Of a stretch of DNA of 64,000 nt, positions 1 to 39,766 are shown one piece after another. The stretch comes from Chytridium lagenaria (lineage: Eukaryota; Chytridiomycota; Chytridiomycetes; Chytridiales; Chytridiaceae): the NCBI GenBank assembly GCA_025449115.1, contig JAHLKC010000141.1, positions 1 to 64,000 of the forward strand, in the 5' to 3' direction. Position 1 is the stretch's first letter. Every line of letters starts with the position of its first letter. The notes under the pieces were generated by a model, which worked only from the letters and a program-made list of their open reading frames with translations, had not been told where the DNA came from and did no database searches. A program made the translations under genes and the position numbers.

Positions 1-850
1 TACGTTGGTATGCGTTGCCGTGATGTCATGCCTTCTTGCCATTTCCGATACCAAGAGCAATGCCATTCACACCACATTTGTACATATGATACATAAACGT
101 ACACCCTACAGCTCCTATTAATATTGCTGCAATATCGGGCTTCCCCAAGTCCCTGCAGCACTTGATGGAATCACACGTAGAGGCCAACACGTGAATTTAC
201 CAAAAATGAGCGTCGCACCAAATTATAAATCGGTCACCAAAGGTATGTCACCGCATACGTTGGTATGCGTTGCCATGATGTCATGCCTTCTTGCCATTTC
301 CGATACCAAGAGCAATGCCATTCACACCACATTTGTACATATGATACATAAACGTATACCCTACAGCTCCTATTAATATCGCTGCAATATCGGCTTCCCC
401 AAGTCCCTGCAGCACTTGATGGAATCACACGTAGAGGCCAACACGTGAATTTACCAAAAATGAGCGTCGCACCAAAATATAAATCGGTCACCAAAGGTAT
501 GTCACCGCATACGTTGGTATGCGTTGCCATGATGTCATGCCTTCTTGCCATTTCCGATACCAAGAGCAATGCCATTCACACCACATTTGTACATATGATA
601 CATAAACGTATACCCTACAGCTCCTATTAATATCGCTGCAATATCGGGCTTCCCCAAGTCCCTGCAGCACTTGATGGAATCACACCGTAGAGGCCAACAC
701 ATGAATTTACCAAAAATGAGCGTCGCACCAAAATATAAATCGTCACCAAAGGTATGTCACCGCATACGTTGGTATGCGTTGCCGTGATGGCATGCCTTCT
801 TGACATTTCCGATACCAAGAGCATGATACATAAACGTATACCCTACAGCT
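1..850. repeat. 254-bp tandem repeat array, about 3.3 units, cut by window edge
   Basis: The same block recurs with a 254-bp offset (for example the segment at 191-376 again at 445-630 and partly from about 699). Units contain TACGTTGGTATGCGTTGCC-type sequence. The array starts just past the stop codon of the KDZ transposase gene and runs off the left edge. I read it as subterminal sequence of KDZ copy A; that placement is inference because the left terminus is not in view. Short open frames within the units are repeat artefacts. Confidence 0.9.
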
Positions 851-883
851 CCTAGGGTTTTTATTACAAAAAATTCTAAAGTA

Positions 884-3800
884 TCAACGTCGGGATGTGA
901 ATTTCTTTAAAAACGCCTCGCTCCCTTTCTTCTCCAACTCTTTCCACACCATCCTATTTGCCATACAAATATACGTAAAAATTGTCATTATTGCATGCCC
1001 TTCAGTCATGTACGAGACCATCTGTCGTAGAACTCCCATGTTATGGTTGGCTGACTCTGTGTAGCTGGTATTAAGGTCTCCAACCCGCTCGTGCTGTCTG
1101 TAGTGTTTGGCGTGGGATGCAGCAGAGCAACCTTTGTGGGCATTGGAGTGAAAGTCGTCAATAATAAAGCGGCAATTCTTGAAGAACTCGTATTCCCGTA
1201 GCGTACAATAGTCAGCTGCATGGCAGTTGTTATCGCCAACGCATATTGATGGGCATATTTCAAATCTACATTAATTAGATCGTAATATTCGTTGCCTCCC
1301 ACCTTGTAAAGAGAGTTGAGAAAACATCATTAATACTTTCAGATTTGGGAAAGAAATGGAAACCAATATAAAAACGATGACGACATAGAAAGACCATAGC
1401 TCCAGCCGTCATTGATTTCGCTTTCCTTTGCCTGTCATAATACTTTGGGCAAATATCATATTCCTTGGTCCTTTTTTCTGTAACTGAAGGTAGGTTGTCT
1501 GCAGGACCTAAGTTCAAGTATCTTGGACGTCGCCGTATCTCAGGTAAAAAGTAGAATGATCCTGTCTAATAAGAATTAGTTATGACAAGAAACGAATTTG
1601 CCGTAAAAAGTTATGAAGGGCGGCATATCATGGTATGCGTTGGTTTGCGTATACATACGCTTACATTCCTACGTATACTTTGTAGGTTATACATTCAGAA
1701 GTGTAGGTCGCCGCATATTTATTTTGTACATTACCTTTTGCCAATTCTTGTTTACGAGATCTCCATGTTCCGTTGTCAAAACTTCTGCTACAGGGTGACG
1801 GCTATGCTGGTTTTCAACCGAATCCCTCCTTTCCCGTAACCATCGTGCAACGTGGATGAATTGTTTGGGTAAAGAAGTATTGTTGCCCACAACTATAACT
1901 TGAAACAGAATGTTACCAATTGAGGGTACATTCTGGCGAAGATTGTCAACGAGTTTCAGCTTTCGTGGTGTGCTCAGGTCATGCCAGTTTTCGAGCTCGA
2001 GGAGGTAGTGGTATCCCGTGGGCAATATGATCGTAACAACCGACTGTTCACAAAATATCTTTTATCGTGTTAAGACGAAGGAAAACATAAAAACATAATA
2101 ACACAAACCACTTTAAGAAGTGTTCGAAGTGCTTCGCATTCAGCTGCAGTCCAAGTATGTTCCATCAAGATAAATTCCATGAATTTGGGTGCATAATCCC
2201 AATATTCCTCCAAGGATTTTCCCAGCTTTCGTCCAGCATCTTTTATGTCCCTTGTTACGCCTTTGTTAACATTTTTCAATAGTTTGCAAAAATCGCGCCC
2301 TTCCAGTCTGACATCTCGTTTTGGTACAAACTATTTGTATTAGAGCGATAGTTTATTGGAAATCCTCACCTGCTTTGACACCAAGTACTTCACTGAGTCG
2401 TTAGGCGTGCTATGCAAATCGATAAAGGTCGGAGGCATCAGGTTGTTGGTTTTCTTATCTTCTTGATAGCCAATGCTGATACCATCGCAAGCAACCAGAT
2501 CGTAGCCATGCTTTTTACAGAAAGGACATTGAATATCCATACCCTTTGTTAAATCCTGCAGCTTACGATAGGAAAACCAAGCCTTAAAAAAATTAGAGAA
2601 TCCTGACAAAATAGCTAAAACTCGAACGGACAAGCAAACGTTGTACCAACGTATGCAGCAACATTATATGGTACCCCATTACATACGGTTGCATGCCAAT
2701 GTATACCGCGGTATACGTTTACATGTGGCCGTATGCACCGGCATGTGTAGTTTGTTAATGGGATGTGCCTCAAACGTTAATGGGAGGATTACGGAGTTGA
2801 AAGAAAATTTTGAAATAAACTTACAGCAGATATGACCTTACTGGATGGTGGATTATAAAGACACCGTCCGCGCCCAAATTCATTATAATTTGACTTTAAG
2901 TGGTTGCTGTAGGCATGAAAGGAGAAAGTTGTTGTTGTGATAAGCTCGGTTATCTTGTCCAAACAAAAGTGTGTTATTAGATAGAAGTTGTTCTTGTTAT
3001 AGATGCCCTTTGCACTTAAGTCTGGACCAATAAACCTGTTATATCTTCGTGGGCAGCGAGTGCATTTGGCTGTTTCAATAAAACAGCGAACGGCGCCGTA
3101 TTCAGTGTACAGTCGACACCATCGAAATTTCCTCTCCGAATCGCAATCTTGTATCTTCATCCCACAAACGCATTGAGAGTCTTCTTCAAGATAAAAAATG
3201 GAACCAGGGTTTTGAATCGCTTCTTCCCCAGCTCGAAATACTCTCGATGCCCAAAAATCAGCTTCACCTTCTAAAAGTGACGAATGCGGTGGCGGTATCG
3301 GCTGCCAGGAGACGGAACCATCCTTATCATCCTCCTCGGAAGCTATAATTCGGCGGCTAAAGTCTAACGTACTTGGATCTTCTTTTCGTAATATATTGAT
3401 ATGACGACAAGGATTCGTATCGACCTTCCCTCCTTTGCATCGAACGCCTTTGCAATCGAAAGCGACCTTGTTGTTATTGTTGATAAATAAACGAAGGATA
3501 ATCCACGGCGGGCCGGTGCTGATGTCTTTATCAAAGATCGCAAAAAACTTGAATTTTTTATCGAAATGAAGACCAATAAATGGATCAGCATCTAGAATTT
3601 GACAAGAATTAGCTATTATGTAATCGCATATATACAATGGTACAAAATGGTATTAGTAGACATACGGCTCTATTCGCCTTTATGTTTACGTTTACCATTA
3701 CATACGTATATAAGTTTTTATATATATTTTGAAAATAAATCAACATACCCATAGGATATTTTATGTCCTTATAAACAAAAGGGATGACATCCTTATGAAT

Positions 3801-4510
3801 GCAGTGTGAGAGTCTCCGTGTGCAGCTGCATTCAATACGCTCCAACTCTAATCCTTGATTGTAGATTTTTACACAAACAAATTTGGTTTTCTTGACATTA
3901 GTTGACATATTTTGTGACGTGATTACCTGATGTACTTTTGGGATAGAGCTATAATCTTGAAAAATATAAACATCGTTTGGGCGAGGTGCTGATAATGTCT
4001 CTTGGTTAAGAATACTTTCTTTGTATTCAATTAAAACTTTTCGACGGTATTCTGGAGTGCTTGGTGTTCTGTTAGTAGAATGAAGATTGATATATAAACT
4101 TACTCCTTTGAGCCATAACCAATCCGTTCTTCTCCAGATATATCTATATCAGCTGGTATGTCACCAACAAGATTCTCATTCGATTGAACCCTAACATCGC
4201 TGTACGGATCCATCATGTTAAAATCCATGTCTTCTTCTAAAACACCAGCATCACGGCTGTGGTTCGAATGCCCAGACATATGCGCAACGTTCTCTGTGGT
4301 GGCAGCGGAGTTAGAGTCCGATAATTTCCACGATAGCTCCTTTTCTATGTATGCATCTGTAAAGCCGTGATGAGGAAAACTCTTATTAAGAACCACACCT
4401 ATATTCCCTCTTGTGTACACTTGGCCCTTCAATGCTAACCTCTTCTGCATATATTTCTCCCACTTGAATAAAGGCCTATCTCTCAATGCCTTCAAGTTTG
4501 AGGGATACAT
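884..4510 (-). CDS. KDZ-superfamily transposase (copy A), multi-exon
   Basis: Catalytic protein expected to cut and paste the giant element. Proposed exons on the minus strand: 4510-4104, 4068-3749, 3591-2842, 2614-2370, 2330-2109, 2043-1735, 1561-1303, 1265-884; most junctions keep phase, the 1735/1561 one does not. Two Cys/His clusters of the SWIM-like CxC type are visible: CSCTRRLSHCIH in exon 2 and CKGVRCKGGKVDTNPCRH in exon 3. Exon 3 also has a CVCG...CTRCPRRYNRF cluster, and exon 4 has CPFCKKHGYDLVACDGISIG. The KDZ catalytic block follows: CPKYYDRQRKAKSMTAGAMV, then GDNNCHAADY, REYEFFKNCRF, DDFHSNAHKGC and TESANHN. Together these match KDZ transposases. Palindrome-rich sequence sits in its introns. 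The first exon start (ATG 4510) is a choice; no stop or frameshift is obvious apart from the one junction. Confidence 0.82.
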
Positions 4511-5008
4511 GACAGTCGAGAATTCAACGTGGATTTATGACAAATTAACTCCTTGCGATGGATTACTGTCAAAGTTTTCATCAGTCTCCGAAATTTTTTG
4601 ACAAAATTCCAAGCACCGCACACTAGTGTATACTTAAGTACTATCACCAAAAAAATTTCCAATGAAGCCTAAACAAGACATACGTATATATACGTTTACC
4701 AACGTATACCATTTATACGTACGTACATTAACGCATGCCATGACATACCTACCGATAATATTTAAGACTAATAGTATTGAACTTAGGGCAAATATCTAGA
4801 TGCCTCCATTTGATTTTTTTGGCCAAATGTGATTTTAAACACCAACAGTAACAATAATTTTTCCTAAACCATTTTTAACCTCCAGCCCAATGAACAAGTA
4901 TAAAGCGTATGCAAACGTTAACGTACGTATATGTTGACATTAAACGTACCTTACTCGGACCATTACATACCTACGTTTGTATACATATGTTACGCAGTAT
5001 CCAGATAC

Positions 5009-7600
5009 ATCACTAGTAAGGAACGCAATGGTGATAGTTTCAGGTTGCTGGCGCGCTTCGTTGTTGCAATATGCCCTTTTGAATGCGGTTTCGCTATAAA
5101 CTTAACTGAAAAGTTGATTTCAAAGTGATGGCGTCCGCTCCAGACAAAAATACACATTCCAAAAGGATCCACAATTCGACAGCTTTTGAATAGTATATAG
5201 TACGCGCGTCTGGCGCGTCGGCAAGTGGTGTTTGTCAACAGCATCATGCATTTACTACGTTACGCGTTAAATTACATGTGGTGAAGAAGCCAGGTGGACA
5301 ACAAATGAAAACAAGATTGGTGAATATGTTTACTAAGGTAATCACTAGTAAGGAACACAATGGTGATAGTTTCAGGTTGCTGGCGCGCTTCGTTGTTGCA
5401 ATATGCCCTTTTGAATGCGGTTTCGCTATAAACTTAACTGAAAAGTTGATTTCAAAGTGGTGGCGTCCACTCCAGACAAAAATACACATTCCAAAAGGAT
5501 CCACAATTCGACAGCTTTTGAATAGTATCTAGTACGCGCGTCTGGCGCGTCGGCAAGTGGTGGTTGTCAACAGCATCATGCGTTTACTACGTTACGCGTT
5601 AAATTACATGTGGTGAAGAAGCCAGGTGGACAACAAATGAAAACAAGATTGGTGAATATGTTTACTAAGGTAATCATAGTAAGGAACACAATGGTGATAG
5701 TTTCAGGTTGCTGGCGCGCTTCGTTGTTGGCAATATGCCCTTTTGAAAGCGGTTTTGCTATAAACTTAACTGAAAAGTTGATTTCAAAGTGGTGGCGTCC
5801 ACTCCAGACAAAAATACACATTCCAAAAGGATCCACAATTCGACAGCTTTTGAATAGTATATAGTACGCGCGTCTGGCGCGTCGGCAAGTGGTGGTTGTC
5901 AACAGCATCATGCATTTACTACGTTACGCGTTAAATTACATGTGGTGAAGAAGCCAGGTGGACAACAAATGAAAACAAGATTGGTGAATATGTTTACTAA
6001 GGTAATCACTAGTAAGGAACACAATGGTGATAGTTTCAGGTTGCTGGCGCGCTTCGTTGTTGCAATATGCCCTTTTGAATGCGGTTTCGCTATAAACTTA
6101 ACTGAAAAGTTGATTTCAAAGTGGTGGCGTCCACTCCAGACAAAAATACACATTCCAAAAGGATCCACAATTCGACAGCTTTTGAATAGTATATAGTACG
6201 CGCGTCTGGCGCGTCGGCAAGTGGTGGTTGTCAACAGCATCATGCATTTACTACGTTACGCGTTAAATTACATGTGGTGAAGAAGCCAGGTGGACAACAA
6301 ATGAAAACAAGATTGGTGAATATGTTTACTAAGGTAATCACTAGTAAGGAACACAATGGTGATAGTTTCAGGTTGCTGGCGCGCTTCGTTGTTGCAATAT
6401 GCCCTTTTGAATGCGGTTTCGCTATAAACTTAACTGAAAAGTTGATTTCAAAGTGGTGGCGTCCACTCCAGACAAAAAATACACATTCCAAAAGGATCCA
6501 CAATTCGACAGCTTTTGAATAGTATATAGTACGCGCGTCTGGCGCGTCGGCAAGTGGTGGTTGTCAACAGCATCATGCATTTACTACGTTACGCGTTAAA
6601 TTACATGTGGTGAAGAAGCCAGGTGGACAACAAATGAAAACAAGATTGGTGAATATGTTTACTAAGGTAATCACTAGTAAGGAACACAATGGTGATAGTT
6701 TCAGGTTGCTGGCGCGCTTCGTTGTTGCAATATGCCCTTTTGAATGCGGTTTCGCTATAAACTTAACTGAAAAGTTGATTTCAAAGTGGTGGCGTCCACT
6801 CCAGACAAAAATACACATTCCAAAAGGATCCACAATTCGACAGCTTTTGAATAGTATATAGTACGCGCGTCTGGCGCGTCGGCAAGTGGTGGTTGTCAAC
6901 AGCATCATGCATTTACTACGTTACGCGTTAAATTACATGTGGTGAAGAAGCCAGGTGGACAACAAATGAAAACAAGATTGGTGAATATGTTTACTAAGGT
7001 AATCACTAGTAAGGAACACAATGGTGATAGTTTCAGGTTGCTGGCGCGCTTCGTTGTTGCAATATGCCCTTTTGAATGCGGTTTCGCTATAAACTTAACT
7101 GAAAAGTTGATTTCAAAGTGGTGGCGTCCACTCCAGACAAAAATACACATTCCAAAAGGATCCACAATTCGACAGCTTTTGAATAGTATATAGTACGCGC
7201 GTCTGGCGCGTCGGCAAGTGGTGGTTGTCAACAGCATCATGCATTTACTACGTTACGCGTTAAATTACATGTGGTGAAGAAGCCAGGTGGACAACAAATG
7301 AAAACAAGATTGGTGAATATGTTTACTAAGGTAATCACTAGTAAGGAACACAATGGTGATAGTTTCAGGTTGCTGGCGCGCTTCGTTGTTGCAATATGCC
7401 CTTTTGAATGCGGTTTCGCTATAAATTAACTGAAAAGTTGATTTCAAAGTGGTGGCGTCCACTCCAGACAAAAATACACATTCCAAAAGGATCCACAATT
7501 CGACAGCTTTTGAATAGTATATAGTACGCGCGTCTGGCCGTCGGTACGCCGGTTGGGCAAGTGGACGCGTTAAATTACATGTGGAGAAGAAGCCAATAAA
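5009..7600. repeat. 332-bp tandem array, about 7.6 units
   Basis: Units recur at a 332-bp spacing (one at 333), nearly identical through the middle and more diverged at both ends, ending in a deleted partial unit near 7545-7600. Each unit holds a GC-rich tract near TACGCGCGTCTGGCGCGTCG and the sequence TTACTACGTTACGCGTTAAA. Overlapping open frames on both strands (84 and 111 codons) repeat in each unit; I treat them as by-products. The array lies between the transposase start and the 3' end of cargo gene 2. Copy B has only about one diverged unit at the matching place (about 34.13-34.35 kb), so the expansion is specific to copy A. Confidence 0.95.
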
Positions 7601-7822
7601 TTTAAGTGAAAAGTAATGTACACACCTATAATGTAAACAAAATCAGGTTTTCATTAAGATTCTAATCCCGACAGACTTTATCAGCAATATGTATTATACA
7701 TACAAAGCATACACTGCAAATACAAGAGCTTTATAGAAAAAAGGACATCACTATAAAATACAAGCACCAGCTATAGATACAATACCACTACAGCAAATAG
7801 AAAAAAGGAAGGAAAGGTGCAG

Positions 7823-10800
7823 CTAATCGGAACCTGAAATGCCAAGCTTGTTCGCATAGATTTTTGTGACCGATCGTGTCGTTGGATGAAGTGACAACCA
7901 CAGATTCGACAGTCCCTAAAAGATATATATTAGAGCTAATTTACAATAAAGGTAACTTACAGCAAAGATATCTTCCTTGTGATCAGCTTTTGTGAACTTG
8001 AGGTTAACGGCCCTAGCGTATGACAGAAGTTCGTCTTTTGTCGAGGATTTCGTGACAACTAAAGCAAATGTAAGTACGAAGTTATTCAAATTCCATACAT
8101 TCTGGATATACCGCTAAGGTTTTAACCTACTTGCCAGTGCTTTTTGAAGAAAGCTTTGGCTGTTTTGGTTCTACTGCAGAAAAAAATATTAATAATGATC
8201 ATGATTGTACATATCCATCATACCTTCACGCTCCTCCCGATGTTTCCGCTTTCCACTAACCACGGGTGCCTCTTCAGTAAGGGCGGTTTCTTCCGATCAA
8301 TGAGTTTCTTCGGATGCTTGCGGGGACTCTCCTCGGTTTCGGCATGTGGTTCCTCGGCGGATTCTATTGACAATTGCGAAAAAAAAAAAATTGAAAAATT
8401 TATAGATTCGTGAAGGTATACCACAAACATATCTTACCTTCACCCTCGGCTTCAGCCATTCTTCTTGTCGTTACGTGTCTGGTAGAAGAGGAGGGACCAG
8501 CTGACAAATAAGCGTAAGCGTTACAAGTAAGGAAAAGAAAGGTGTTTCATAATATAATGAAGGTTTACCTTGTTGTGGTTCAACCTCTCGTTCTTTCAAA
8601 AAATCGTTAACACTTACAACCTTAATATTATATTAAATGTTCATACCTCTTTTTCTTGCCTTCGACGCGATAGACGCGATAGACACGTTCTTGGCTGCAA
8701 TAAAAAAGGGTTTAGAAAAAAATTACCCTAAGTATACGGCCTTAAGCGGGTATAGACAAAGGTATACGTCTAATTATAACAGTATACCATTGCATACGGC
8801 CGCAAGCCGTAACAAGTGTTAAATGTTAAAGTAGATGATAAAAGAAAATACAATAGAACTTTAAACCTACGCAACGTAACAGGATGTTTTGGCGCCTTTG
8901 GAGACTTGGGCGATTGGGTTGTTGGCGACTTAGCTGCATTCAATTAGCGTAAGCAAAAGAATTGTAAATAAAACATAATAATTTACTTGGTTTTGCGGCG
9001 GGAACAGCCTCCTCTTCCTCCTCGTCTTATATAGAAAAAAAATAATTATTAAAATCAGCATACTGTCGTAGACGGCAGCATATGCAAAATGCGGTTATAA
9101 ACCAAGGTATACGGCTATTTATAGCAGTATACCATCGCATACGGCCGCAAGCCGTAACAAGTGTTAAATGTTAAAAGTAGATGATAAAAGAAAATACAAT
9201 AGAACTTTAAACCTACGCAACGTAACAGGATGTTTTGGCGCCTTTGGAGACTTGGGCGATTGGGTTGTTGGCGACTTAGCTGCATTCAATTAGCGTAAGC
9301 AAAAGAATTGTAAATAATAAATATTGTAAATTAAAAATAATTAAACTTACTCGGTTTTGCGGCCTCTTCCTCCTCCGGTGCTTTAAATAAACATTTTTGT
9401 AAATTCGAAAATGCCGACATAATGCTGAAACTTACCGGGCTTTTTAGTCTTAGACGAGGTAGACGTAGTACCCTTTTCTAAAATTAATGTTAGTCCAACG
9501 TTCAAATACCACATCTATACACAGTTTTTTAAAAAACTTTGAATATATATTCCATAGACTTACCCTTTCCCTTTGATGACGGCGAGGTTATCGAACCTTT
9601 TCCTAACAAAAACCTTGTGAGTGTACTTGGCGATGTATGGTTAACAGCAGCAGTACGTTTTGGAATACCGTGGTATGCCGTGGTATATCTATGTACGGTT
9701 AAACTCACCTTTTCCAGCGGTCGGCAACGGCTCCTCCGTTATCTCCATCTCTTCTTCGACATGAGCCTTCTTACTTTTCGCCACGTCGATGCTCAATTTA
9801 GGCGGAACCTTCGCTGCTAAATATCACACACAGAAGAAATTAGAAATCAACTCCGCATGACATAACGACGCTCAAAATACCTTTAACCGACCGTTCCTGT
9901 TTTGGCTTGACGACCTCTATCTCGTGCTCTATTCTTGTAAGTCCGATAGGATAGTTTACATACCTTTGACGTAGGATACCACGGTCGGTTCATACGGGTC
10001 ATATCACCTATGTTAAAACCGTTGACATATGTTACCAAAGTACTGGTTTGAAACCGGGTTAGGGCGTATACGGCCGTTCCGGCCGTATACACCCTGAATT
10101 GAACCAGCATCAATATGTAAACAAAATCACGGCCATGTACGGCCTTATACGGCCTTACCCAGCTGGTGGTTGTACATGGCCGGACCATGTATGGCCTTAT
10201 CCAGCTGGGTTGGCGCAATATTTGGCGCCACATTTAGCCAACGACATACGTTTACCCTTCAACCACTTTGGATTAAATCATGTGGTATGCACCAGATCTT
10301 GCCAGGTATGGCTGTCTGTCCCCACCGCCCACACAAAGCACAGAATATCCTGACGTGTACGGCCAATTTGTCGCTTGTAAACCATCAATTAAATGGCCGT
10401 GTACGGCCCATTGGTCAGGAAATATGATTATTTGGTACCCCCCCTTTGGCGCCGCAACGGACAGTTAACGTCCAATCAGGCCGTAACCGCACGGGTACGT
10501 CCAAATCAGCCCTAACCGCACGGGTACGTCCAATCAAGGCCGTAACCGCACGGGTACGTCCAATCAAGGCCGTAACCGCACGGGTACGTCCAAATAAGGC
10601 CGTGACCGCACGGGTACGTCCAAATAAGGCCGTAACCGCACGAGTACGTCCAAAGATGGCCAATTATACAAACTGTTTGAATCATTTGCTATCGCAATTG
10701 CTAACTTCTGAAGAATATTTCATAAAATATTAATTGATTAAGGTAGAAGTACTAACATTAACCTTTCACAATGCGTCAGTCCCAAACAGTCGTCTCTGCA

Positions 10801-12742: not shown

Positions 12743-13165
12743 CGATTTTCTTTAGTGTTACTGTAGCAGTCATACGGATATTTGCTGTTGGACTTCAAAT
12801 AAATCCGTTGAGCACAGCATCTATCAGCGTATAAATTGATACCATTACATACCGTTAAATATTATGGCATACCATTGCATACTTTTAATGTAACATAATT
12901 CGCATGTTTGCTGTGAGTTATCCCCTAACCAGCCAACCCACTGAACTCTACGTAAACCACAGCATACAAGCGTATACCATGATTTTCTACTTTTTTTAAA
13001 CAGATACGGTTTATTTTGGTAATATTCACCATGCAGCTAAACAATATAAGGCCAACAAGCCGAACGTTTATAAATGCTATGCAAAGACATAGAGGTATTT
13101 AACAATAAACAGTTGTATTAACATGCTTGACGCATTGACAACAAATTTTTTTGGACTCAAAGAAT
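12743..13165. promoter_or_regulatory. Divergent intergenic region between the two cargo genes
   Basis: About 420 bases separate the starts of the divergently read cargo genes. It holds several ATACCATTACATACC-type half-palindromes and an AT-rich core. The same spacer is present in copy B (about 30046-30450). A shared promoter is inferred from the layout only. Confidence 0.45.
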
Positions 13166-14969: not shown

Positions 14970-15029
14970 TTATGTAAACTCAATCATATGAATAAATGCC
15001 GTAAAAATTTTTGTAAAATAGTTAAGATG

Positions 15030-15225
15030 TAATGTTAATGTACACAGCATTAGCACTTATATATAAGCAATGGCGCAAGAAAGCGTATGTCTACGCACGT
15101 AAAATCAGCGATTGCGTACGTGAGCGTACGCTTACGTACGCTCGCGTACGTACGCTTTCGACTGTAAGCGCAAACGTTTGTATGCTACGCATACGTCGCA
15201 CGTACGTCTGCGAAAATGTATATAT
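15030..15225. repeat. TACG/CGTACG-rich terminal region of KDZ copy A
   Basis: Dense short palindromes built from CGTACG and TACGCA fill 15080-15210. The region ends with TCTGCGAAAATGTATATAT at 15207-15225. The reverse complement of the same end begins copy B at 27481, which defines this as a transposon terminus. Such repeats are typical binding sites for a transposase at element ends; that role is inferred. Confidence 0.75.
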
Positions 15226-21545: not shown

Positions 21546-21799
21546 ACCTACTCGAAACATCATTTTACAACGAAAAACACTACCGTCATACCATGGTACA
21601 CGTTTGTATGCGAACGTATATGATCTGAAATTCGACGAAATTTTATTACTAGTCGTCGGTTTTGTACTATAGGATATAACTCTTTCTAGCATCATTTCAT
21701 TGGTTCCCAGGAGGTTCGACCCCTCCTGGCGCGGGTGGCACGATTTCATCCTCGCCGTGCCCTGAGTCGGGTGACTCAGGGCGTGGTTGAGGTGTTTTC

Positions 21800-24670: not shown

Positions 24671-24679
24671 GCGATCATC

Positions 24680-27352: not shown

Positions 27353-27587
27353 ATTTTTGTGTTGGAAGCTTCATGTAGATCATAAAGCCAGTAAAAGACT
27401 TTGGAAGCTAGTGATGGGTAATAGATTGGCTGATGATATTACTTTTTATCTTCATCCGGTTTTGTGGGGACTATTCCTAAATATATACATTTTCGCAGAC
27501 GTAGGTACGTATGCGTACGGTTACGTACGTCTGCGTTTACAATCGTTGATTTATGGCGTAGACGTACGCTCTTTTGCGCCATTGCTT

Positions 27588-30045
27588 ATATATAAGTGAT
27601 GATGTTGTTTACATTAAAATACATCTTAACTATTTTACAAAGATTTTTACGGCATTTATTCATATGATTGAGCTTACATAAGTATCGATATCTATCGCTT
27701 CTCCGAGATGATCTGGAGTTGTACCTACTAATTTTCATAGGTGAACTCCCGCGCTCTGAAGAGCTGTAATCAGTTTGAGATCTTGATCGGTCAGTTTCTC
27801 TAGATGACAAAGGCCTTGAGTAACTTTGGAAGCGCCGAGTCCTTCTTTGTTTTTCAGGAGAAAAGCTTGCTGATTTTCTAATGTGTTCGGATCGACAAGG
27901 CAGCAATGAGTCCTCCGAAAAGCAAGGTAATGGCCTTGACACAAGTGTTGAAGTCCGGCTGTTATCAGGAATAGTTTGTTGTTCAACGGGGGCAATCCTG
28001 ACTATTGCATGTATCCCTTTTAATTAATTATGGTTAGGTAATTTTTTTCCGACTCGAACCGAATCAAATGTAATAAAACAATACTCAAATTTAAGACGCA
28101 CCCACTTTCGAATGACAATCCAGCTTTTTGGCAATATTAGTGAGCTTCTTGTCAAACTCGTTCAATATGTTTTTAAATGAAAGAAGCGATGCTTTGAAGC
28201 TGTCTTTCATTTCGTCCTGCGCTTTGTGTAAAAACGCGAAGTTGAATATCATGGTTCTCTATATTGCATTATTTTCGTACATCATTAATTGAAGACTGTC
28301 ATTCTGTGCGGCTGCAGTCTGTAGGTTTGAACCTCCGATGCCAACAATGTTGCAGTCATTTAATCTTTTCAGTTCGCTAATCCCAAAGCCTGTTTAAACG
28401 TTAACAACCATCACCATTATAAAAAAATAAAACAGATAAGTATACCACGGTATGCGTTAATATACTGCATTGTGCCGCGCGGTTAAACATACTGCTGCAG
28501 TAAAGTGCTGTATATTGCGGTATACTGTGGGTTACCACAGCATGTCAGGGGTATATCACATACAACTGCTGTACACTTGACATACTATGGCATACCACAG
28601 TTTCCGTTGGTAGATGTGTATAACGCAATAAATTTGCAGCCGTTTCTCACCTGGAACATGCTGCTGAAATCCTGGTGACGTGTAAGCCTTGGCTGCCCCG
28701 GGTAAGTAGCTAATAAGAGAATTCCAGCGTTGATTTTTTGACTCATGTTATCAGCCTAGATACAGGGGCAAAATGTTTATGAACTGTTAAACTGCACTTA
28801 CCGTTTGAACGAGATGCTCCCAATGCCGTCGAAAAAAGGAATTTGTCATTGATCTAGTTTGTGCAGGACAGTTCACATTGGGAAATGTGTTTCTTCGGTT
28901 GTTGGACTGCTTCACACTTACTTAAACAAAAAGGGTGAGCTATTGTTTGCCATATTCAAGTTAATGTACCATCCTGTATAACTTGGCCACTTCTAATTTT
29001 GTATGCACCTTCAATAGGAAGAGGAAGAGGAAGAGGAAGAGGAAGAGAAGGAGGAGGAGGAGGAGAAGCCGCCGGAAAAGAGTCTCAGGGGATCTGTTAC
29101 AGCTTTATGTGAATGTTGTTGGATTTCGCTCAATTGACTCACGAGGACGCGTCAGGATCACTCGCACCATTAGTCCGCGGCGTTGGGCGCAACACTAGAG
29201 TGCTCTAGAATTTACGCGTCGTTAGAGTTGAGCGCGAACGCGCCCACTTGACTTCTAATTTACATTCTGGACTCATTTGAATTTCCCACTTTGATTTACC
29301 TTCCTTGATTGGTTTATTTTCTTTATGCCAGTTTTATTATAACTCTACCTGTTTGTGATTGGACATTCCCTTCTAGCCTTTATTCCCTTTGTTCCCGTCA
29401 AGGCTCTCTGATTTGCTTATCTTTGTAATGGAGAGTTTAACGCGTGAGTGTACGCGTCTCCGATAGGTTTACCTTTGTGTTGTCTTTTCTCTTACTTGTT
29501 CGTTTCGTTTGAGTATTTAAAGACTCGTGTGTTGAGTCGAAATAAATTTAAGAACGTTGTTCAAGCAAAAGTGCGTTTAACTTTGTTTTAATTGAGTTCC
29601 GTGAACAACAAGTATTCAACAAATTTTGGTAGTTTGCTGATTGTTCACGTTGTCCTTATAAGTTCAGAGTTGTCAACAATCTTCAAGCATTGAACTCACT
29701 GTTTTCATTTGAAGTGTCTCCTCGTGCGGCGGTACTTCTATCAACCATTCGAACATATCTTTGCTAGAGTCTTTGACTACGATTCGAGTCTTCATTCAAC
29801 GCATCAACCTCCATCATCTCCCTCATTCTGAGTTGGCTCATCATCATTGTCACTGTAAGCTGGATCCTCAGGGATTCCCTGAGCCATCATAATCTATAGA
29901 TTGTGTGTATAGAGATCAAAGTTAATAACGTTCAAAGGCTAATTATTCAATGTATTCACCATCCTCAAATGTGTTCTACAGTTGTTGCCGTTGAACTTCA
30001 CCCATTCTTCTCCATATTCTTTGAGTCCAAAAAATTTTTATTGTC
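27588..30045 (-). pseudogene. KDZ cargo gene 1, copy B, interrupted by a solo LTR
   Basis: Homologous exon by exon to 13166-14969. It keeps the Ser/Arg-rich tail in a longer frame (SRPLPCFSEDSLLPCRSEH to SRRSDRYRYL), the coiled-coil exon with one in-frame stop near 28260, and ADNMSQKINAGILLLATY. The acidic N-terminal exon ends early in a stop after EPTQNEGDDGG. A copia LTR lies in the exon that in A reads NQSRNRSIQ. Shared intron borders between A and B support a real gene in the ancestral element. Confidence 0.6.
29117..29621 (+). mobile_element. Ty1/copia solo LTR (505 bp) inside KDZ copy B
   Basis: Starts TGTTGGATTTCGC and ends GTATTCAACA, the TG...CA ends typical of copia LTRs. Flanks AATGT (left) and AATTT (right) are a 5-bp target duplication with one change. 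The matching place in copy A (about 13545-13550, reverse complement GTATGTTGGTAG) has no insert. It is homologous to the LTR at about 21800-22224. Confidence 0.88.
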
Positions 30046-30452
30046 AAAGCGTCAGGCATGTAAATGTAATGTTTATTGTTAAATACCATTATGTCTTTGC
30101 ATTGCATTTATAAACGTTTGGCTTGTTGGCTTAATATAGTTTAGCTGCATGGTGTAAATGTACCAAAACAAACCGTATCTGTTGAAATTAAAGTAGAAAA
30201 TCATGGTATACACTTGTATGCTGTGGTTTACCTATATTTCAGTGGATTGGCCAGTTAGGGGAATAACTCACAGCAAGCAAGCAAATAATGTTACATTAAA
30301 AGTATGCAACGGTATGCCATAATATTCAATGGTATGTAATGGTATGCAATTTATACGCTGACAGATGCTTGTAGTCAACGGATGTATTTGAAGTCCAACA
30401 GCAAATATCCGTATGACTGCTACAGTAACACTAAAGAAAATCGTTGCAAAAA

Positions 30453-33400
30453 ATGTACTGCCCATGTTGTGACGAAGAGGTTGAGTCCGTCACAACATCA
30501 AGGCATTTGGGAGGACCACTTGCACAGTGCTAGCGCCAATGGGCATGCAATTTGTGGTCCTATCATTACCATGATAATGAGACTGGATTCCTCGGTTCCG
30601 TATACCAGAGTCTGTCCTCAATACTTAGCGGTTCCTACGCCACCATTCAGCAACCTCAACAAAGTGCAGCAACAGAAAAACGCGGTGTGAAGGCCACTAT
30701 CATTTGCAAACGGTCGCAGCAACCCGAAAGTAAGTAGCTATGATGTCAATTTTTATTATGGTAAAAGTATATTAGGAGTCACAACGCGATTATATCGCCT
30801 GACTGAGGCGGAGAAGAAAGCCATGGATGTGCTACTCACGGAGAAAGTCAGGATTGCAGCATTGATGGACTCCCTCCCAAAGTTAGGGTTTGATCCCGCC
30901 GTTGCCGAAAGTTTACGTTTAAAGATTGCAAAGGTAGGATACACTCGAGTTCATGTATTGACGCTACTAGGCAAAAAATGCATACATCAGCGCCTTCCAG
31001 GACACCTGGTCCCCGGAAAGCCCTCGAGTTGCTGGTTATCTCATCGACGAAGATAACCATGTTATCATCGAATGGGCCGACAAAGAATCGGAGGTCGTTG
31101 CTGTGGTATTTGAATTTGAATTTTAATGATTATTAGCCTGATGAGCCACGCAAGCAAGAGCCCCTGCCACGTAAAAAGCCTGCCCTTACGAAAAGGTTAG
31201 ATTCATTGGCAAGCCTGTTGAGGAAGAGGAAGTGACGTCGAGGAAGAGGTATGAACCGACCGTGGTATCCTACGTCAAAGGTATGTAAAGTATCTTATCG
31301 GACTTACAAGAATAGAGCACGAGATAGAGGTCGTCAAGCCAAAACAGGAACGGTCGGTTAAAGGTATTTTGAGTCGTTATGTCATGCGGAGTTGATTTCT
31401 AATTTCTTCTGTGTGTGATATTTAGCAGCGAAGGTTCCGCCTAAATTGAGCATCGACGTGGCGAAAAGTAAGAAGGCTCATGTCGAAGAAGAGATGGAGA
31501 TAACGGAGGAGCCGTTGCCGACCGCTGGAAAAGGTGACCGTACATAGTATACCACGGTATACCAAAACGTACTGCTGCTGTTAACCTACATCGCCAAGTA
31601 CGCTCACAAGGTTTTTGTTAGGAAAAGGTTCGATAACCTCGCCGTCATCAAAGGGAAAGGGTAAGTCTATGGATTATATATTCAAAGTTTTTTAAAAAAC
31701 TGTGTATAGATGTGGTATTTGAACGTTGGACTAACATTAATTTTAGAAAAGGGTACTACGTCTACCTCGCCTAAGACTAAAAAGCCCGGTAAGTTTCAGC
31801 ATTATGTCGGCATTTTCGAATTTACAAAAATGTTTATTTAAAGCACCGGAGGAGGAAGAGGCCGCAAAACCGAGTAAGTTTAATTATTTTTAATTTACAA
31901 TTTTTTATTTACAATTCTTTTGCTTACGCTAATTGAATGCAGCTAAGTCGCCAACAACCCAATCGCCCAAGTCTCCAAAGCCGCCAAAACATCCTGTTAC
32001 GTTGCGTAGGTTTAAAGTTCTATTGTATTTTCTTTTATCATCACTTTAACATTTAAACACTTGTTACGGCTTGCGGCCGTATGCAATGGTATACTGTTAT
32101 AAATAGACGTATACTTTTGTCTATACCCGCTTAGGGCCATATTTAGGGTAATTTTTTTTAAAGCCTTTTTTATTGTAGCCAAGAACATGTCTATTGCGTC
32201 GAAAGCAAGAAAAAGAGGTATCAACATTTATATATTAAGGTTGTAAGTGACAATTTTTTGAAAGAACGAGAGGTTGAACCACAACAAGGTAAACCTTCAT
32301 TATACTATGAAACACCTTTCTTTTCGTATACTTGTAATGCTTACGCTTCTTTGTCAGCTGTTCCCTCCTCTTCTACCAGACACGTAACAACAAGAAGAAT
32401 GGCTGAAGCCGAGGGTGAAGGTAAGATATGTTGGTGGTATACCTTCACAAATCTCTAAATTTTTCAATTTTTTTTTTCGCAATTGTCAATAGAATCCGCT
32501 GAGGAAACATATGCGAAAACCGGGGAGAGTCCCGCAAATCATCCAAAGAAACTTGTTGATTGGAAGAAACCGTCCTTACTGAAGAGGCACCCGTGGTTGG
32601 TGGAAAGCGGAAACATAAGGAGGACACAATGTGAAGTCTCTCTATTGCCCCCTCTGCTAAGCCCCGGCATACAGAGGTAGAGAACCACATAACAGGTGAC
32701 GAGACTAGAGTCAAGGAGGTACTCCTAGATCAAGAGTCAACCCTATTCTGCCTTTAGTGACAGCGGGGATTTAAGTTGCTGTGGTTCTGCTCTAAAACTA
32801 ATCTAAATGAAAGAAAGGAAGGAAAAAGGAAGGACAAAGGTACTCAGGCGGAGATCCAACGCGCCAGAATGGAATGGTCATCAAGGAGGGAGTCCATCCC
32901 GCTCCTAGTAGTGTACAAGGCCTCGTAATTGCCGCAATAAGCCGTTGTAACATGTTCTCATCTGATTACTTCTACCTAAGGCCCTACTCATGCTGCACTC
33001 CCACTCACAGGCAACTTGATAGCCAGTCGTCGCATCAAGAAAAGAACAGAGGTGGTTATATTACCCAAACCTTTGAAGGAATCATGCCACAGAGGCGTCT
33101 ATCCAGGGCTCAAGCCTTCTTAGACTCAAGTGTCTTGGTTCAAGGTGTAGTCTCCCCTAGCGGCGTAATCCCCAAGCGCCCGCAGGTACAACTAAATAAC
33201 ACAATATTGAATAACTGAAGAATGAAGAAAGCATGGCCCAAGGGCAGCCATGCCTGGATGTATGTATGTGATCAATCCAGGACTACAGAGGTGCACGTAA
33301 ATCTATTCAACTTTCTACAAAAAAATAAACAATATATAAAGGGGAATCAAATAACAACAACAGGCATCTCGACCAACGTGGTAGCATGTCATAAGTTGGC

Positions 33401-33970
33401 ATACCACGTCAACCGCCCTTCCTTCTATAAAAACCTCTTTTGTATCTATGGGGAAAAACTATGAAAACCCCCGAGAGGGAAAAGAATGGAACAGGAACAA
33501 GAAGATAAGGATAATGGCACAATGTCTATATAAGCAACGCATTCATGCCTCTTGGTGAGGTTATTCAATAATCTCAAAAGAATCATGAACATCATTTATA
33601 TTTTTCTGCAGTTGATCCATAACAGCCAAAGCCTCCTTCAAAAAGCACAGGCAAGAAGGTTTAAACCTTAGCGGTATATCCAGAATGTATGCTATGTGAA
33701 TAACTTCTTGCTTACATTTACTTTAGCTGTCACAAAATCAGGAGATATTCTGACATACGCTAGGGCTGTTAACCTCAAGTTAACAAAGACTGATAACAAG
33801 GAAAAAATATTTGCTTTAAGTTACCTTTATGTAAATTAATTCTAGTATATATCTTCTTCTAGAAACTGTCTCAACTCTGGCTGTCACTTCATCCAACAAC
33901 ACGAGCGGTCACAAAAATCTATGCAAACAAGCTTGGAATTTCAGGTTCCGATTTTCCTCCTTCCTTTTTT
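30453..33970 (+). pseudogene. KDZ cargo gene 2, copy B, interrupted by an insertion
   Basis: Same exon order as 12742-7823. The CPCCDEEVES start (30453) soon meets a stop, whereas the helix segment LTEAEKKAMDVLL...MDSLPKLGFDPAVAESLRL is intact here and broken in A. An extra C near 31020 shifts the frame before the AGYLIDED segment that A keeps. Micro-exons follow with conserved borders (AKVPPKLSIDVAKSKKAHVE; EKGTTSTSPKTKKP; KSPTTQSPKSPKPPKHP). An insert at about 32645-33575 precedes the SAP-like end. The two copies complement each other, allowing comparison of the ancestral reading frames. Confidence 0.6.
32645..33575 (+). mobile_element. About 0.93-kb LTR-like insertion inside cargo gene 2 of copy B
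   Basis: Copy A is continuous across this place (about 8190-8240) while B carries about 930 extra bases starting TGTGAAGTCTC. Its 3' part (CTATAAAAACCTC, GGGGAAAAACTATGAAAA, GAGGGAAAAGAA) resembles the end of the insert at 38340-39269, so both may belong to one LTR family. A clean target duplication could not be found and the right edge is approximate. No coding sequence was recognised. Confidence 0.55.
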
Positions 33971-35050
33971 TATTTGCTGTAATTGTATTGTATTTATAGC
34001 TGGTGCTTGTATTTTAAAGTAATGTCCTTTGTTCTATAGAGCTCTTGTATTTGCAGTGCATGCTTCAGTTTGTATAATGCATATTGCTGAATAAAGTTGG
34101 TGGGCATTTGAATATTGATGAAAACCTAATTTTGTTTACATTATAGGTGTTTACATTACTTTTCACTTAAATGTATTGTCAACATTTCAGTTAAATTTAT
34201 AGCAAAATTGCATTCAAAAAGGTATATTGCAACAACAAAGTGGGCTAGCAACTTGAATCCATCACCATTGTGTTTCACACTAGTGATTTATTTAGAGAAA
34301 ATAATCTACTACAAATTTTGGTCTTAACTAGCGATAAATACCAGTAGTGGGTTAGAAAAACTTTATTGACAACAATTGCTACTAACGGGACTAGATATAG
34401 TTACTTGACTTAAAGATGAATCCAAACACTGTATTTTGAATTGGTTGCGTCTATCTACGACTTTGAGCAAAATTTAGTGTTTGGGCATGTCATATATGCG
34501 TGTCTGTAGACATATGAATACATACGTAGGTATGTTATAGTCCGCGTAAAGGTACGTTTAATGTCAGCGTATAAGTATGTTAACGTTTGCATACGCTTTA
34601 TACTTGTTCTTTGGGCTTAAGGTCTAAAAATGCTTTGTGGAAATTTTTTTAAGTGTTGGTGCTTTAATCTGCATTTGTCTCCAGAAATCAAATAGAGGCA
34701 TCTAGATATTTGCCCTAAGTTTAATATTATTGCTCCAAAATCTTATCAGTAGGTATGTTGTATATAAAGATATATACACGCTGGTAAACGTATATATACG
34801 TATGTCTTGTTAATGGCTTTATTGGAAATTTTTCTTTATGTCATTACCGTATTTTCTATGGAACAAGCAACACCATCCACTGATAATTAATTATCGTGTT
34901 GCTTGCCCCAATGAACTTGGTTTTATTCTTATTAAACAAAAAAAAAAAAAAAAAAATGGTACAAGTTGTCATCCCACCTTCTAAGGCTAGATTTTGAATT
35001 TTAATAAAGGACGCCGCTTCTTCGATTTTTTTCCGCTAAGTTAAGTCAAC

Positions 35051-36497
35051 ATGTCCGAATCAACATCGGACACGACGACGTCTCGATTGCACATCACCAT
35101 CGAAAAGAAAAAGACCATAGTTGAAAGGATGTGGTTGGCCCAGAGCTCGGGTCAATCCATTCGATCCTTTGCCAAGGACATTGGAAATATTGCCCCTTCC
35201 CAGCTTGTTCAATGGGAGCGTGACTATGAGAAGGTTTGCAATTTGGTGCAAGAGAGCATCAAACCTAAATTCACTTTGAACACTGGTCCTAAGCGTAAAG
35301 GCACATCAGATGGAATAAAAACGTTTGTCATAGGTAGGTTAAGTAGATCACTTCTATTTCATATATTGACGGCAATCCTACAGATTTTGTTGAGGGAAGA
35401 ATATATAATGAGGAACATTGCAGCGTCAAGCAGATTGCATTAGCTGTGCAAAGAACGTACCCCGAATTCTTTGTGACTCCAACCCATAAACATCACCGTG
35501 TTCTCGGCGGTAACGAGGTCTTGTCCACCATAGCTGATCCAGAAAATCAAGATCATCAAGGTGGTCATGTGGAAACTGGACAGAATAAGCGCATATCAAG
35601 TTGGGTGCGGCGGACTTTGATTGAAAGCAAATACACGTGCAACAGGCGAGTAACCCATGTTGCTCAATCAAAATCTATAACTGAGCTGGAGATTGAAGAC
35701 TTTCGTCAATTCGTTCCAGGATCATATTGGAGTTCAATATTCCACACAGCTGCATTGGAAATATGGATCAAACAAATGTTCCATTTGATCTTAATTACAG
35801 CACTACGATTGCCAAGACCGGATCAAAAAACATACCACTTCGTGCCCAAAAAAAAAAAGGAGGTTGGAAACATTATTCTTTTTGCATTATTCTTTCACTT
35901 ATTATCTTTCTGTTATCATCTTTCCGTTAAAACTTCAAAGCTATAGTGGGAGGAAGGGCCACTTCAAGCCTTACCGTCATTGGTGATGGGGTTAAGCTGA
36001 AGCCAATGGTTGTCTTTCATGGAACTCGTCATACACCTGGGGCAGCGGATTGAGGTCTAAAGGTTGCGCAAGACTGCATTAAGCTGGAAAGCCAGTATGA
36101 CGATATCCTATTTACAGTGCAAATTAATGGATGGGTGGACGAGATTGGAATGCTGGATTGGGTGGATTGGGTCTGGAAACCGTTTGCTTTGTCTAAGCAA
36201 GGAGTTTGCCTTTTGATGTTGGATTGTGTTAAAGTTCATCAGATGGCTTCAGTTGGCCAGGCCATCGCATCTTGCAACACAATTCTTGTGTTTCTACCGG
36301 AGCATAGCACGAGTGCTCTTCAAGTTTGTGACGTTGGCATTAATAAGCCATTCAAGGATGGCTTAGAGTTTGCTATAGAAGGAACTCTGGTCGAAAAGAT
36401 TGGACAGGATGAGATTGCTGGTTGCATTCAAAAAGCTTGGGCTGGAATCACTCCCCACATGATTGTTAACACGTATAGGCACATATTTTTTCATTAA
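35051..36497 (+). pseudogene. Pogo/DDE_1 transposase, frameshifted
   Basis: Exon 1 (35051-35333) encodes a helix-turn-helix region (SIRSFAKDIGNIAPSQLVQW). A GTAGGT...CTACAG intron joins in phase to exon 2 at 35384 (DFVEGRIYNEEHCSVKQIAL). The DDE_1 domain then shows IGNMDQTNVPFDL (first catalytic Asp), VVFHGTRH, LLMLDCVKVHQ (second Asp) and FLPEHSTSALQVCDVGINKP (third acidic residue, D in D/N-V/I). The frame changes near 35720 and between about 35860 and 35960, and an in-frame stop lies near 36050. The frameshifts and in-frame stop would need correcting to give a working enzyme. The CENP-B-like DNA-binding part appears short. Confidence 0.85.
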
Positions 36498-36533
36498 ATA
36501 AACAGTTTATTAACTAGATAACATCAATATTGT

Positions 36534-37024
36534 TCACTCAAATTCAGGAACATTATCAAGCATAAGAACCAAACCCGCACCACCATTTCTAAAGGAGAAC
36601 CGACGCATATTCGAGTTTTCCAACTCCGCTTTGAGCTCGACAACTTGCCCGAACTTGTTGTGAAGGGCTTCAGCTTGATACAAAAAGGCTCTTGGAAGGA
36701 AGCCAACAGTGCATGTCTCATGGCCTGCATCGAATAGCAAAACCTTCATAGCAGGTTCAAACTCCCCCTTTTCATTTTGAATGAGTCCCTGCTTGAAGCG
36801 AACCAAATCGCCAATGCTCAGAAAGGTTCCGCATGGCTTCTTTGGGTCGTCATGCACTATACAGCTCCTTCCATTGCTTGCCATATGAAGCCCAACGATC
36901 AAAATCCGCGATGAGTCGTCATTGAGGTGGTGAGGATGGGGGGCTTGAGGTCCGGGGTTGAAAACGATGGGGGCTCTTGAGTCAATCCAAGCATGGTTAG
37001 GCAGTTTTCCTTCACTTGTAATTT
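36534..37024 (-). CDS. Antisense passenger gene in the pogo element, HIRAN-like fold (tentative)
   Basis: An exon of about 163 codons on the strand opposite the transposase, convergent with it and only about 35 bases from its end. It opens after a TTTATAG acceptor at 37025-37031 and reads ITSEGKLPNHAWIDSRAP, ILIVGLHMASNGRSCIVHDD, GTFLSIGDLVRFKQGL, AMKVLLFDAGHETCTVGFLP and ends VLMLDNVPEFE. The order of beta-strand-like segments and TVGFLPRAFLYQ recalls the GYLPRELA end of HIRAN domains, which bind DNA ends. The family call is inference from pattern. The first exon near the right TIR was not identified. It might instead be a host fragment captured by the element. Confidence 0.45.
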
Positions 37025-37341
37025 CTATAAATAAATTCCTAATAAATGTTGGTTCGAAATTATGGTGATTGTCAGGCTTGTGCTACAGAATGTATTAAAA
37101 ACAGTCAAAAAAAATTTATTTGCTCTTCTATTAGAGAACAACTGCTGCTATTTAAAATATTTGTTGCTTGCTCTATTTTGTAAAAAAGTTTGCTTGTTCC
37201 ATAGAAACTACGGTACTTAAGTATACACTAGTGTGCGGTGTTGGAATGTTGTCAAAAATTTTCGGAAACTGGTGAAATTTTTGACAGTATCTAACGCAAG
37301 GAGTTAATTTGTCATAAATCCACGTTGGATTCTCAACTGTT

Positions 37342-39766
37342 ATGTATCCCTCAAACTTGAAGGCATTGAGATATTGGCCTTTATTCAAGTGGGAGAAATA
37401 TATGCAGAAGAGGTTAGCATTGAAGGGCCAAGTGTACACAAGAGGGAATATAGGTGTGGTTCTTCATAAGAGCTTTCCTCATCACGGCTTTACAGATGCA
37501 TACATAGAAAAGGAGCTATTGTGGAACATATCAGACTCTAACTCCGCCGCCACCACAGAGAACGTTGCACATATGTCTGGGCATTTGAACCATAGCCGTG
37601 ATGCTGGTGTTTACTAAGAAAACTGGATGTTAACATGATGGATCAGTGCAGCAATGTTAGGGTTCAGTCTAATGAAAAACTTGTTGGTGACATACTAGCT
37701 GATATAGGTATATCTGGAGAAGAACGGATTGGTTCTGGCTCAAAGGAGAAAGGTTATATATCAGTCTTCATTATTCTAACAGAACACCAAGCACTCCAGA
37801 ATACTGTTGAAAAATTTAAATTGAATACAAAGAAAGTATTCTTAACCAAGAGACATTAGCAGCACCTTGCCCAAACAATGTTTATATTTTTCAAGATTAT
37901 AGCTCTATCCAAAAGTACATCAGGTATTCACGTCACAAAATATGTCAACTAACGTTTTACAAGAAAACCAAACTTGTTTGTGTAAAAATCTACAATCAAG
38001 GATTAAATTTGGAGCGTATTGAACGCAGCTGCACACGGAGACTCTCACACTGCATTCATAAATACGTCATCCCTTATGTGTATAAGGACATTAACTGTAC
38101 AATGGGTATGTTAAATTTCAAAATTTAAAATGACTCATATAAGTATTAATGGTAAATGTAGGCATATAGTATAACGGTATGTCTACTAATACCATTGTAT
38201 ACCATTGTATATATGCAATTACAAATCAGAGCTAATTCTTGTAAATCTAGATTCTGATTCATTCATTTGCTTTATATCAATAAAACATTCAAGTTTTTTG
38301 CGTTTTTTGATAAAGACATCAACACCGGCTGTGATCTTCTCTTGACCCATCCCTCCCTACCTAGCTTCGACTAGGGGGTAGGGGAGAAGAGTAAAGGAGT
38401 TGCTCCAGCAGAGCAAGTCCACAGAGCACCTAGAGGACGGATGTACTCCGCCGTCTAAGTGATGTTAGTTGTTGTTTTGGCTGTGTGTGGTAGTTTTCGC
38501 GAGTTCTATTAAATAAAAGGGAGATGGGAACGGTTTAGTATCTTCATTATCGACTTACCTTGCTTCTACACCAATATCAGCACCAGATCGTCTCCTGGCG
38601 ATCGGGGATGGCTGAAAGCCTCCTTGCCTTCCTGCTATGGCACCTTTTGGAACGTGAAGATCTCGTTGCCTCACGAGCTGGCACAGGGTAACCTCACTCA
38701 TCACCTGCCTGCAGCGTTGATCACCGGCTCGGGGATCATCAGAGGTGGAATGTAGCCAACCAAGCCTAAGCTAAAGGACACTGACAATGAGGAGGACCCT
38801 TGGGCTCCCATCTCAGCCTTCTGCTTCAAACAGCTGGATTGCGGCTTCACCAGGTGGCAGGGGGTAGAGGGGTGGGCTGCCATCCAAGAAGGAGTGAAGG
38901 GAGATCACGGCGAGGCCACGCGCGTGAGATAGAGGATGGGGAATCAACTCAATATCAACCACTTAATTCAACAAGGTACAAATTAAATCAAGAAATCTCT
39001 CATATTAAAGTAATACATAAAATACAAATAAATAATAGACACAACATATGCACACACATATAATCGGCACATATGCGCGTCACCTCCTTCAATAAAAACC
39101 CTATAAACGTGGGGAAAAAGTGTATATAAAAAACCCAAAGGGAAAAGAAGGGAGGATTCAATATGACGCGTAAATATACGCGTCGATGTGGGATATAACG
39201 GAACTCAACGGACTTAGACGGAATGTCCTTATGAGCCATAGGCCATGTGAATAATGTAATTCTTCAACACGGCCCGCCGTGGATTGTCCTTCGTTATTAT
39301 CAACAAAAACAACAAGGTCACTTTCATTGCAAAGGCCGTTCAATGCAAAGGAGGGAAGGTTGATACAGATCCTTGTTGTCATATCAATATATTACAAAGC
39401 GAAGATCCAAGTACCTTAGATTTTAGCTTGCCTGGATTAAAGCTTTCAGGGAAATTGATAATGATGGTTCTGTCTCTTGGCAGCCGATACCGCCACCCGC
39501 ATTCTTCACTTGTAGAAGATGAAAAGCTGATTTTTGGGCATCGAGAGTATTTTGAGCTGGGGAAGAAGCAATTCAAAACCCTGGTTCTATTTTTTACATT
39601 GAAGGAGACTCTCAATGGTTTGTGGGATGAAGATACAAGATTGCGATTCAGAGAGGAAATTTCGATTGTTGACTTGTACACTGAATACGGCGCCGTTGCT
39701 GTTTTATTGAAACAGCCAAATGCACTCGCTGCCCATGAAGATATAACAGGTTTATTGGTCCAGAAT
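37342..39766 (+). pseudogene. KDZ transposase copy B, catalytic half missing
   Basis: Homologous to exons 1-3 of the copy A transposase: MYPSNLKALRYWPLF at 37342, an exon 2 region with the CSCT-like cluster read as CSCTRRLSHCIH with a frameshift (about 38026), and VQCKGGKVDTDPCCHINIL at 39325. It is broken by early stops (for example after SRDAGVY), by the 930-bp insert at 38340-39269 and by truncation at about 39766. None of the GDN or DDFH catalytic blocks are present. Confidence 0.8.
38340..39269 (+). mobile_element. 930-bp solo LTR-like insertion with CGGC target duplication
   Basis: Copy A is continuous here (about 3510-3516, ACCGGCCCGCC in reverse). In copy B the insert runs from TGTGATCTTCTC to TTCTTCAACA and is flanked by CGGC at 38336-38339 and 39270-39273. 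TG...CA ends with a 4-bp duplication fit a Ty3/gypsy-type solo LTR. No coding sequence recognised. Confidence 0.75.

Follow-up and report, generated by a model that had tools for sequence, protein, structure and literature searches.

The first 40 kb of a Chytridium lagenaria contig hold a transposase gene and two further multi-exon genes, followed by a related stretch in inverse orientation. What mobile unit do these genes belong to, and are the two companions of the transposase passengers or working parts of it? The stretch analysed, hereafter the window, comprises bases 1–64000 of contig C141 in a genome assembly of 41.9 Mb and 356 contigs. A sequence-only reading of it had proposed a large element of KDZ type that carries two additional multi-exon genes, both conserved, in an apparently zoosporic fungus, and this description held: both genes are also kept in a diverged second family (family B), and the genome encodes chitin synthases of fungal type (8 matches) and IFT57, a protein of flagellar transport (all 4 matches above the cut-off), a combination that fits a zoosporic fungus. 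Our analysis indicates that the left-hand copy (copy 1) very probably belongs to a family, here called A, of autonomous-type KDZ-superfamily DNA transposons of about 14 kb, which would carry helper genes of their own and move by the mechanism proposed below.

The transposase gene of copy 1 occupies 884–4510 on the minus strand. Our splice model joins eight exons (4510–4104, 4068–3749, 3591–2825, 2582–2370, 2330–2109, 2043–1735, 1565–1303 and 1265–884) through introns that are all GT..AG into an open reading frame of 960 aa; a placement of the transposase at 12743–15225 was rejected. The gene had been called KDZ-type from its CxC clusters and GDN/DDFH blocks. The cysteine part of that assignment is confirmed by Pfam, which reports CxC4 (PF18717), a cysteine cluster associated with KDZ transposases, at residues 375–503 (E = 7.9e-23, above the cut-off). 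The KDZ domain itself is a weak match below the cut-off: PF18758 scores 23.2 bits against the C-terminal 214 aa of copy 1 (E = 6.5e-5; cut-off 26.6), is matched by five of six C-terminal sequences of the family (best E = 1.9e-5) and is not reported by Pfam for the full-length 960-aa protein. A profile search of the protein database with the C-terminal region retrieved 21 proteins, 8 from C. lagenaria and the rest from Mycena (two proteins), Collybiopsis and metagenomes; precomputed PF18758 annotation is present on seven of the 21, Collybiopsis included. In an alignment of 21 sequences (39% mean identity), the D in GDN/ADN/YDFAC, the IDDFH block and the E in NTS..E are conserved, and these would be the catalytic residues. 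None of 5354 database candidates matched the full-length transposase at E ≤ 0.001, an hhalign comparison of six C-terminal sequences with 10 PF18758-positive fragments from the same genome scored below permuted controls, and the AlphaFold model was poor (pLDDT 59), with no matches when this poor model was searched with Foldseek. Taken together, these results weakly indicate a KDZ domain. A 2013 paper counted Zisupton among the superfamilies without a DDE transposase at that date.

Two tandem arrays flank the transposase gene. On its outer side a 254-bp array (1–854) continues past the start of the contig, which falls within it. On its inner side an array with a unit of 332–333 bp (5009–7538) is followed by the two companion genes, gene 2 (7826–12733, minus strand) and gene 1 (13166–14969, plus strand). 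Both are broken in copy 1: gene 1 has lost its frame, and gene 2 is frameshifted and has a further element nested inside it. More intact versions are found in the copies on contigs C29, C99 and C229. The terminal-repeat motif (CGACGA/TCGTCG) was absent from all four array units checked, and the 332-bp unit of family A and the 333-bp unit of family B have a 61-bp inverted stretch (72%) as their sole common part. Element copies are often located at contig ends (C29, C99, C349, C48, C100, C141 and C229), as if the 254–333-bp arrays broke the assembly.

The earlier reading had placed a terminus at 15225, which proved wrong. Copies on C14, C22, C24, C29 and C99 pass directly from the counterpart of 15558 to that of 21154–21680 and then into GGGTTATATCC..., so 15559–21153 is an insertion and the right end of copy 1 lies at about 21,682. 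The insertion is a nested retroelement on the plus strand with a reverse-transcriptase domain (RVT_1, E = 1.5e-10); it is GC-rich, has a tail of TATTGAAAT repeats and shows, by eye, a target duplication of about 5 bp. Beyond it, copy 1 resumes at 21154–21682, its last segment on the right, which bears the terminal inverted repeat (motif at 21628–21659). The left terminus lies beyond the contig, past the 254-bp array, and its counterpart is visible in the copies on C353 and C22.

Comparison of 50 terminal sequences revealed terminal inverted repeats that are conserved, asymmetric and contain a short palindrome (CGACGAC...TTCGTCG). The gene 1-side terminus starts GGGTTATATCC(C/T)ATAGTACAAAACCGACGAC and the transposase-side terminus starts GGGATAAATACC...AAAACCGACGAC, each followed by the ...TTCGTCG arm. 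The pattern GGG(T/A)TA...AAAACCGACGAC...TTCGTCG occurs 56 times in the genome and is absent from the reversed control. Facing pairs of termini delimit four family B elements, on C229 (~14.0 kb), C39 (~13.2 kb), C155 (~7.4 kb) and C221 (~13.2 kb), and one family A element of 6.6 kb on C22, which lacks the equivalent of window 1188–8455. Exact 8-bp target duplications flank three of these five two-ended elements (C155, C39 and C221); at the C229 element the 8-bp match is shifted by 4 bp, and the C22 element lacks an 8-bp duplication. From the copies combined, we infer a full size of about 14 kb for family A. The sequence flanking a family B terminus at C138:97.6k recurs beside another at C185:48.9k, which makes one of these termini a duplicate or haplotype of its partner. 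A third type of terminus, ACGACGACAAGTAATAAAATTTCGACG, occurs at C100:2855, C170:66975, C35:1451, C73:195340 and C182:54949 and resembles that of a copy on C351 that bears a TET gene.

The right-hand counterpart of copy 1 in the window, copy 2 (27473–39830), is an inverted, truncated relic of family A. It had been described, as 27481–39766, as a second copy of the same unit as 884–15225, inverted and with the same gene order. The inverted homology stands and is colinear (3014–15161 with 27493–39771), but the two are not equal copies of one unit: the transposase homology of copy 2 ends short of the catalytic exons, no terminus of it is recognisable within the window, and it holds three insertions. 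These are a 0.5-kb repeat at 29126–29622 (with relatives at window 21828–22224 and on C22, C45, C349 and C353), an insertion at 34834–37212 with a DDE_1 transposase fragment (36054–36494, plus strand) and a 0.9-kb repeat at 38330–39263 (with relatives on C14 and C24).

A gene order that appears twice in 40 kb, once in each orientation, with some stretches 99–100% identical between the copies, is what an inverted segmental duplication of a single locus could leave. However, copy 1 is 98.9%, 98.8% and 98.0% identical to the copies on C99, C29 and C22, respectively, and 93.3% identical to copy 2 over 5104 aligned bases; copy 2 is in turn 93.7–94.7% identical to all three. Furthermore, the homology between copies 1 and 2 stops inside the element, whereas copy 1 continues to its terminus. 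Because copy 1 is nearer to these copies elsewhere than to copy 2, an inverted duplication does not account for the pair; we rejected this origin on the copy identities and consider it very unlikely. The 99–100% stretches match C99 just as closely and are better explained by gene conversion or a mosaic origin. Across 27473–34100 copy 2 is a mosaic in which most 300-bp blocks show 83–97% identity and several show 98.6–100% to C99, and the latter suggest past exchange between copies. Copies 1 and 2 are thus independent members of family A, copy 1 being nearly whole and copy 2 older and truncated. Past the elements the window contains host-like genes (42132–53018), including a protein kinase (42132–42593, plus strand), Arm repeats (44210–44788, minus strand) and a weak TPR match (52485–53018, minus strand).

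Beyond family A, the trio of transposase and genes 1 and 2 also occurs in three other diverged families (B, C and D), and the transposases of the four families are 38–78% identical exon by exon. The trio is present in family B on C229 (1377–15381), C39, C155 and C221; in family C on C221 (4689–16621), where the element is complete by position at 11.9 kb; and in family D on C114, with its transposase at 7770–11293 on the plus strand. The earlier reading had named, as a check on its unit, further copies that keep this gene order and have clear ends, and such copies exist. The orientation of gene 2 with respect to the transposase differs between families: in C and D it is the opposite of that in A and B.

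Family C also accounts for the insertion within gene 2 in copy 1. Its two kinds of terminus, GGGTCATATCACC... (16 genome matches, control 0) and GGGATAGCTACTGGGG... (25 matches, control 0), form eight short two-ended pairs of 1.4–2.6 kb, which are putative non-autonomous derivatives of the family. By position, these include the 1.9-kb element at 9996–11921, whose related termini both fit those of family C. It interrupts gene 2 between exact 8-bp duplications of GTTCATAC at 9988–9995 and 11922–11929, and the site is uninterrupted in the copies on C29 and C22. Minisatellites lie inside this non-autonomous element.

Are genes 1 and 2, then, captured host genes riding as passenger cargo, as the term used for them in the earlier reading implied? 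There is precedent for this, since KDZ elements with an added TET/JBP gene have been described (PMC12730594). In the genome we counted 37 loci for gene 2, at least 57 for gene 1 and 54 for the transposase C-terminus (among 99 scored of 180 candidates), with loci clustered by eye and neighbours taken within 12 kb. Among the matches listed, gene 1 lies near 31 of the 37 gene 2 loci, the transposase near 18 and both near 14; gene 1 or 2 lies near 21 of the 54 transposase loci and neither near the other 33. In some cases, such as C138, C185 and C221, a neighbour may be part of an adjacent element. The situation that was to count against the unit, companion genes without a transposase, thus occurs formally at 19 of the 37 gene 2 loci among the matches listed. 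However, 11 of these 19 are cut on the transposase side by a contig end no more than 12 kb away; on C22, a true internal deletion has removed the transposase.

Two further results argue against cargo. The same pair accompanies the transposase in four families whose transposases have diverged to the extent given above. In addition, a profile search with gene 2, in which 7996 candidates sharing most words were scored, gave nine matches, all of them C. lagenaria proteins encoded on contigs of the present assembly, and no host-like family appeared among them. In comparisons of family A with family B, the dN/dS ratio of transposase exon 3 is 0.07. Two exons of gene 1 give 0.09 and 0.24–0.25, where unsaturated, and exons 1 and 2 of gene 2 give 0.33 and 0.35, several other A/B pairs being saturated at synonymous sites; gene 2 of the decayed copy on C45 gives 0.80–0.93. 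Genes 1 and 2 therefore look constrained between families A and B, and this constraint, together with the recurrence of the trio, argues that they are genes of the element and not passengers. A passenger origin is unlikely in our estimate, and the best reading of the sequences is that genes 1 and 2 are core or helper genes of the element.

A different separation of the trio would make genes 1 and 2 a satellite transposon module of their own, with the same termini, that came to lie beside or inside KDZ elements by chance. Such a module could account for the several loci, among the matches listed, at which the two genes lack a transposase within 12 kb, and for the flipped orientation of gene 2 in families C and D. 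Set against this, four complete family B elements and one complete family C element hold the whole trio between a single pair of termini, and three of the complete trio elements have exact duplications. We regard a chance association of this kind as very improbable and retain the view that genes 1 and 2 are parts of the KDZ element.

The proteins themselves offer some hints of function. By eye, gene 1 encodes a coiled-coil-like middle and a basic Ser/Arg-rich tail, and gene 2 an N-terminal CPCC...H...H motif, low-complexity micro-exons and a C-terminal stretch, the two ends suggesting a zinc finger and a SAP-like region. Pfam gave no significant match for genes 1 and 2, their pieces or two database proteins of gene 2 (best E = 0.062 and 0.16–0.26), so the labels zinc finger and SAP-like rest on inspection by eye.

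We propose that the complete unit runs from the GGGTTATATCC... terminus through gene 1, which faces that terminus, gene 2, the 332-bp array, the transposase and the 254-bp array to the GGGATAAATACC... terminus. The KDZ transposase would bind the palindrome in the termini and the element would move by cut-and-paste with 8-bp staggered cuts, like other KDZ elements. The basic product of gene 1 and that of gene 2 may be DNA-binding helpers of transposition or expression, and the arrays may serve as spacers or binding platforms.

Family D may add a further gene to this arrangement. Three matches to Tet_JBP (PF12851) are found in the genome, two of them over the cut-off, and none lies inside the A and B elements seen. 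On C114 the domain (15611–15868, plus strand) follows the family D transposase at a distance of 4.3 kb, in the order gene 1-side terminus (1028), trio, Tet_JBP and then a 255-bp array. Its counterpart on C351 (8096–8353), 99.8% identical, is 2.3 kb inward of a transposase-side terminus at 5804. The domain match has an E value of 1.2e-9, and an HKD...SHGN...R pattern, as expected of a TET/JBP enzyme, is visible by eye. In the excerpts of PMC12730594, transposon-borne TET/JBP genes are listed from Pucciniomycetes, Agaricomycetes and Pezizomycetes only (rusts, mushrooms, and morels and truffles); like the TET-bearing fungal DNA transposons described there, the family D copies on C114 and C351 have Tet_JBP beside a KDZ transposase, whereas families A and B are without it.

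How do these elements compare with known systems? Starships are cargo-mobilising giant elements with a tyrosine-recombinase captain at one end, whereas the transposase here is KDZ-type. With Zisupton and Dileera, as excerpted from PMC12730594, our elements share the KDZ transposase domain (here a weak match) and a CxC-type cysteine cluster; with Zisupton and a Dileera element, 8-bp target duplications (here exact in three of five two-ended elements and at the nested element); and with Zisupton, terminal inverted repeats. They differ from both in the weakness of the KDZ profile match, the two extra genes lacking a Pfam match, the tandem arrays that flank the transposase and the chytrid host. 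Cryptococcus KDZ1, KDZ2 and KDZ3 (PMC12810828, in part), which are 9–11 kb long, also have terminal inverted repeats and a KDZ domain with a cysteine cluster; they make 8-bp target duplications (4–8 bp for KDZ2 and KDZ3), and their movement has been shown. Their repeats are 139–241 bp long and their cluster is CxC1, in contrast to asymmetric repeats of about 55 bp and CxC4 here, and the two accessory genes found here are unmentioned in the excerpted text on them. Kyakuja, again from the excerpts of PMC12730594, is a large member of the KDZ superfamily that carries a TET/JBP gene in mushrooms, but its duplications are reportedly 7 bp long, its ends are CA..TG and inverted repeats are absent, unlike the 8-bp duplications, GGG ends and inverted repeats described here. 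We found no report of KDZ elements or of such accessory genes in chytrids in the open literature, most subscription papers lying outside the search. With two helper-like genes of its own beside the transposase, the chytrid element is an unusual version of a known transposon type.

A broader reading, for which we see the case as evenly balanced, is that the chytrid KDZ elements form a multi-protein branch with two obligatory partners found so far only there, and that at least one family, D, with a TET/JBP gene in the gap between transposase and terminus, independently extends transposon-borne DNA demethylation to an early-diverging fungus. If this holds, KDZ elements of this lineage depend on more than one protein of their own for transposition, and such a need would help to explain why KDZ elements reach 10–18 kb. 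According to the excerpts, the Coprinopsis TET enzyme oxidises both 5mC and 6mA (PMC12730594), and early-diverging fungi, including Chytridiomycota, mostly have 6mA rather than 5mC (PMC13297926, a 2026 review). A chytrid TET/JBP enzyme could therefore reveal which of these marks, 5mC or 6mA, such genes evolved against.
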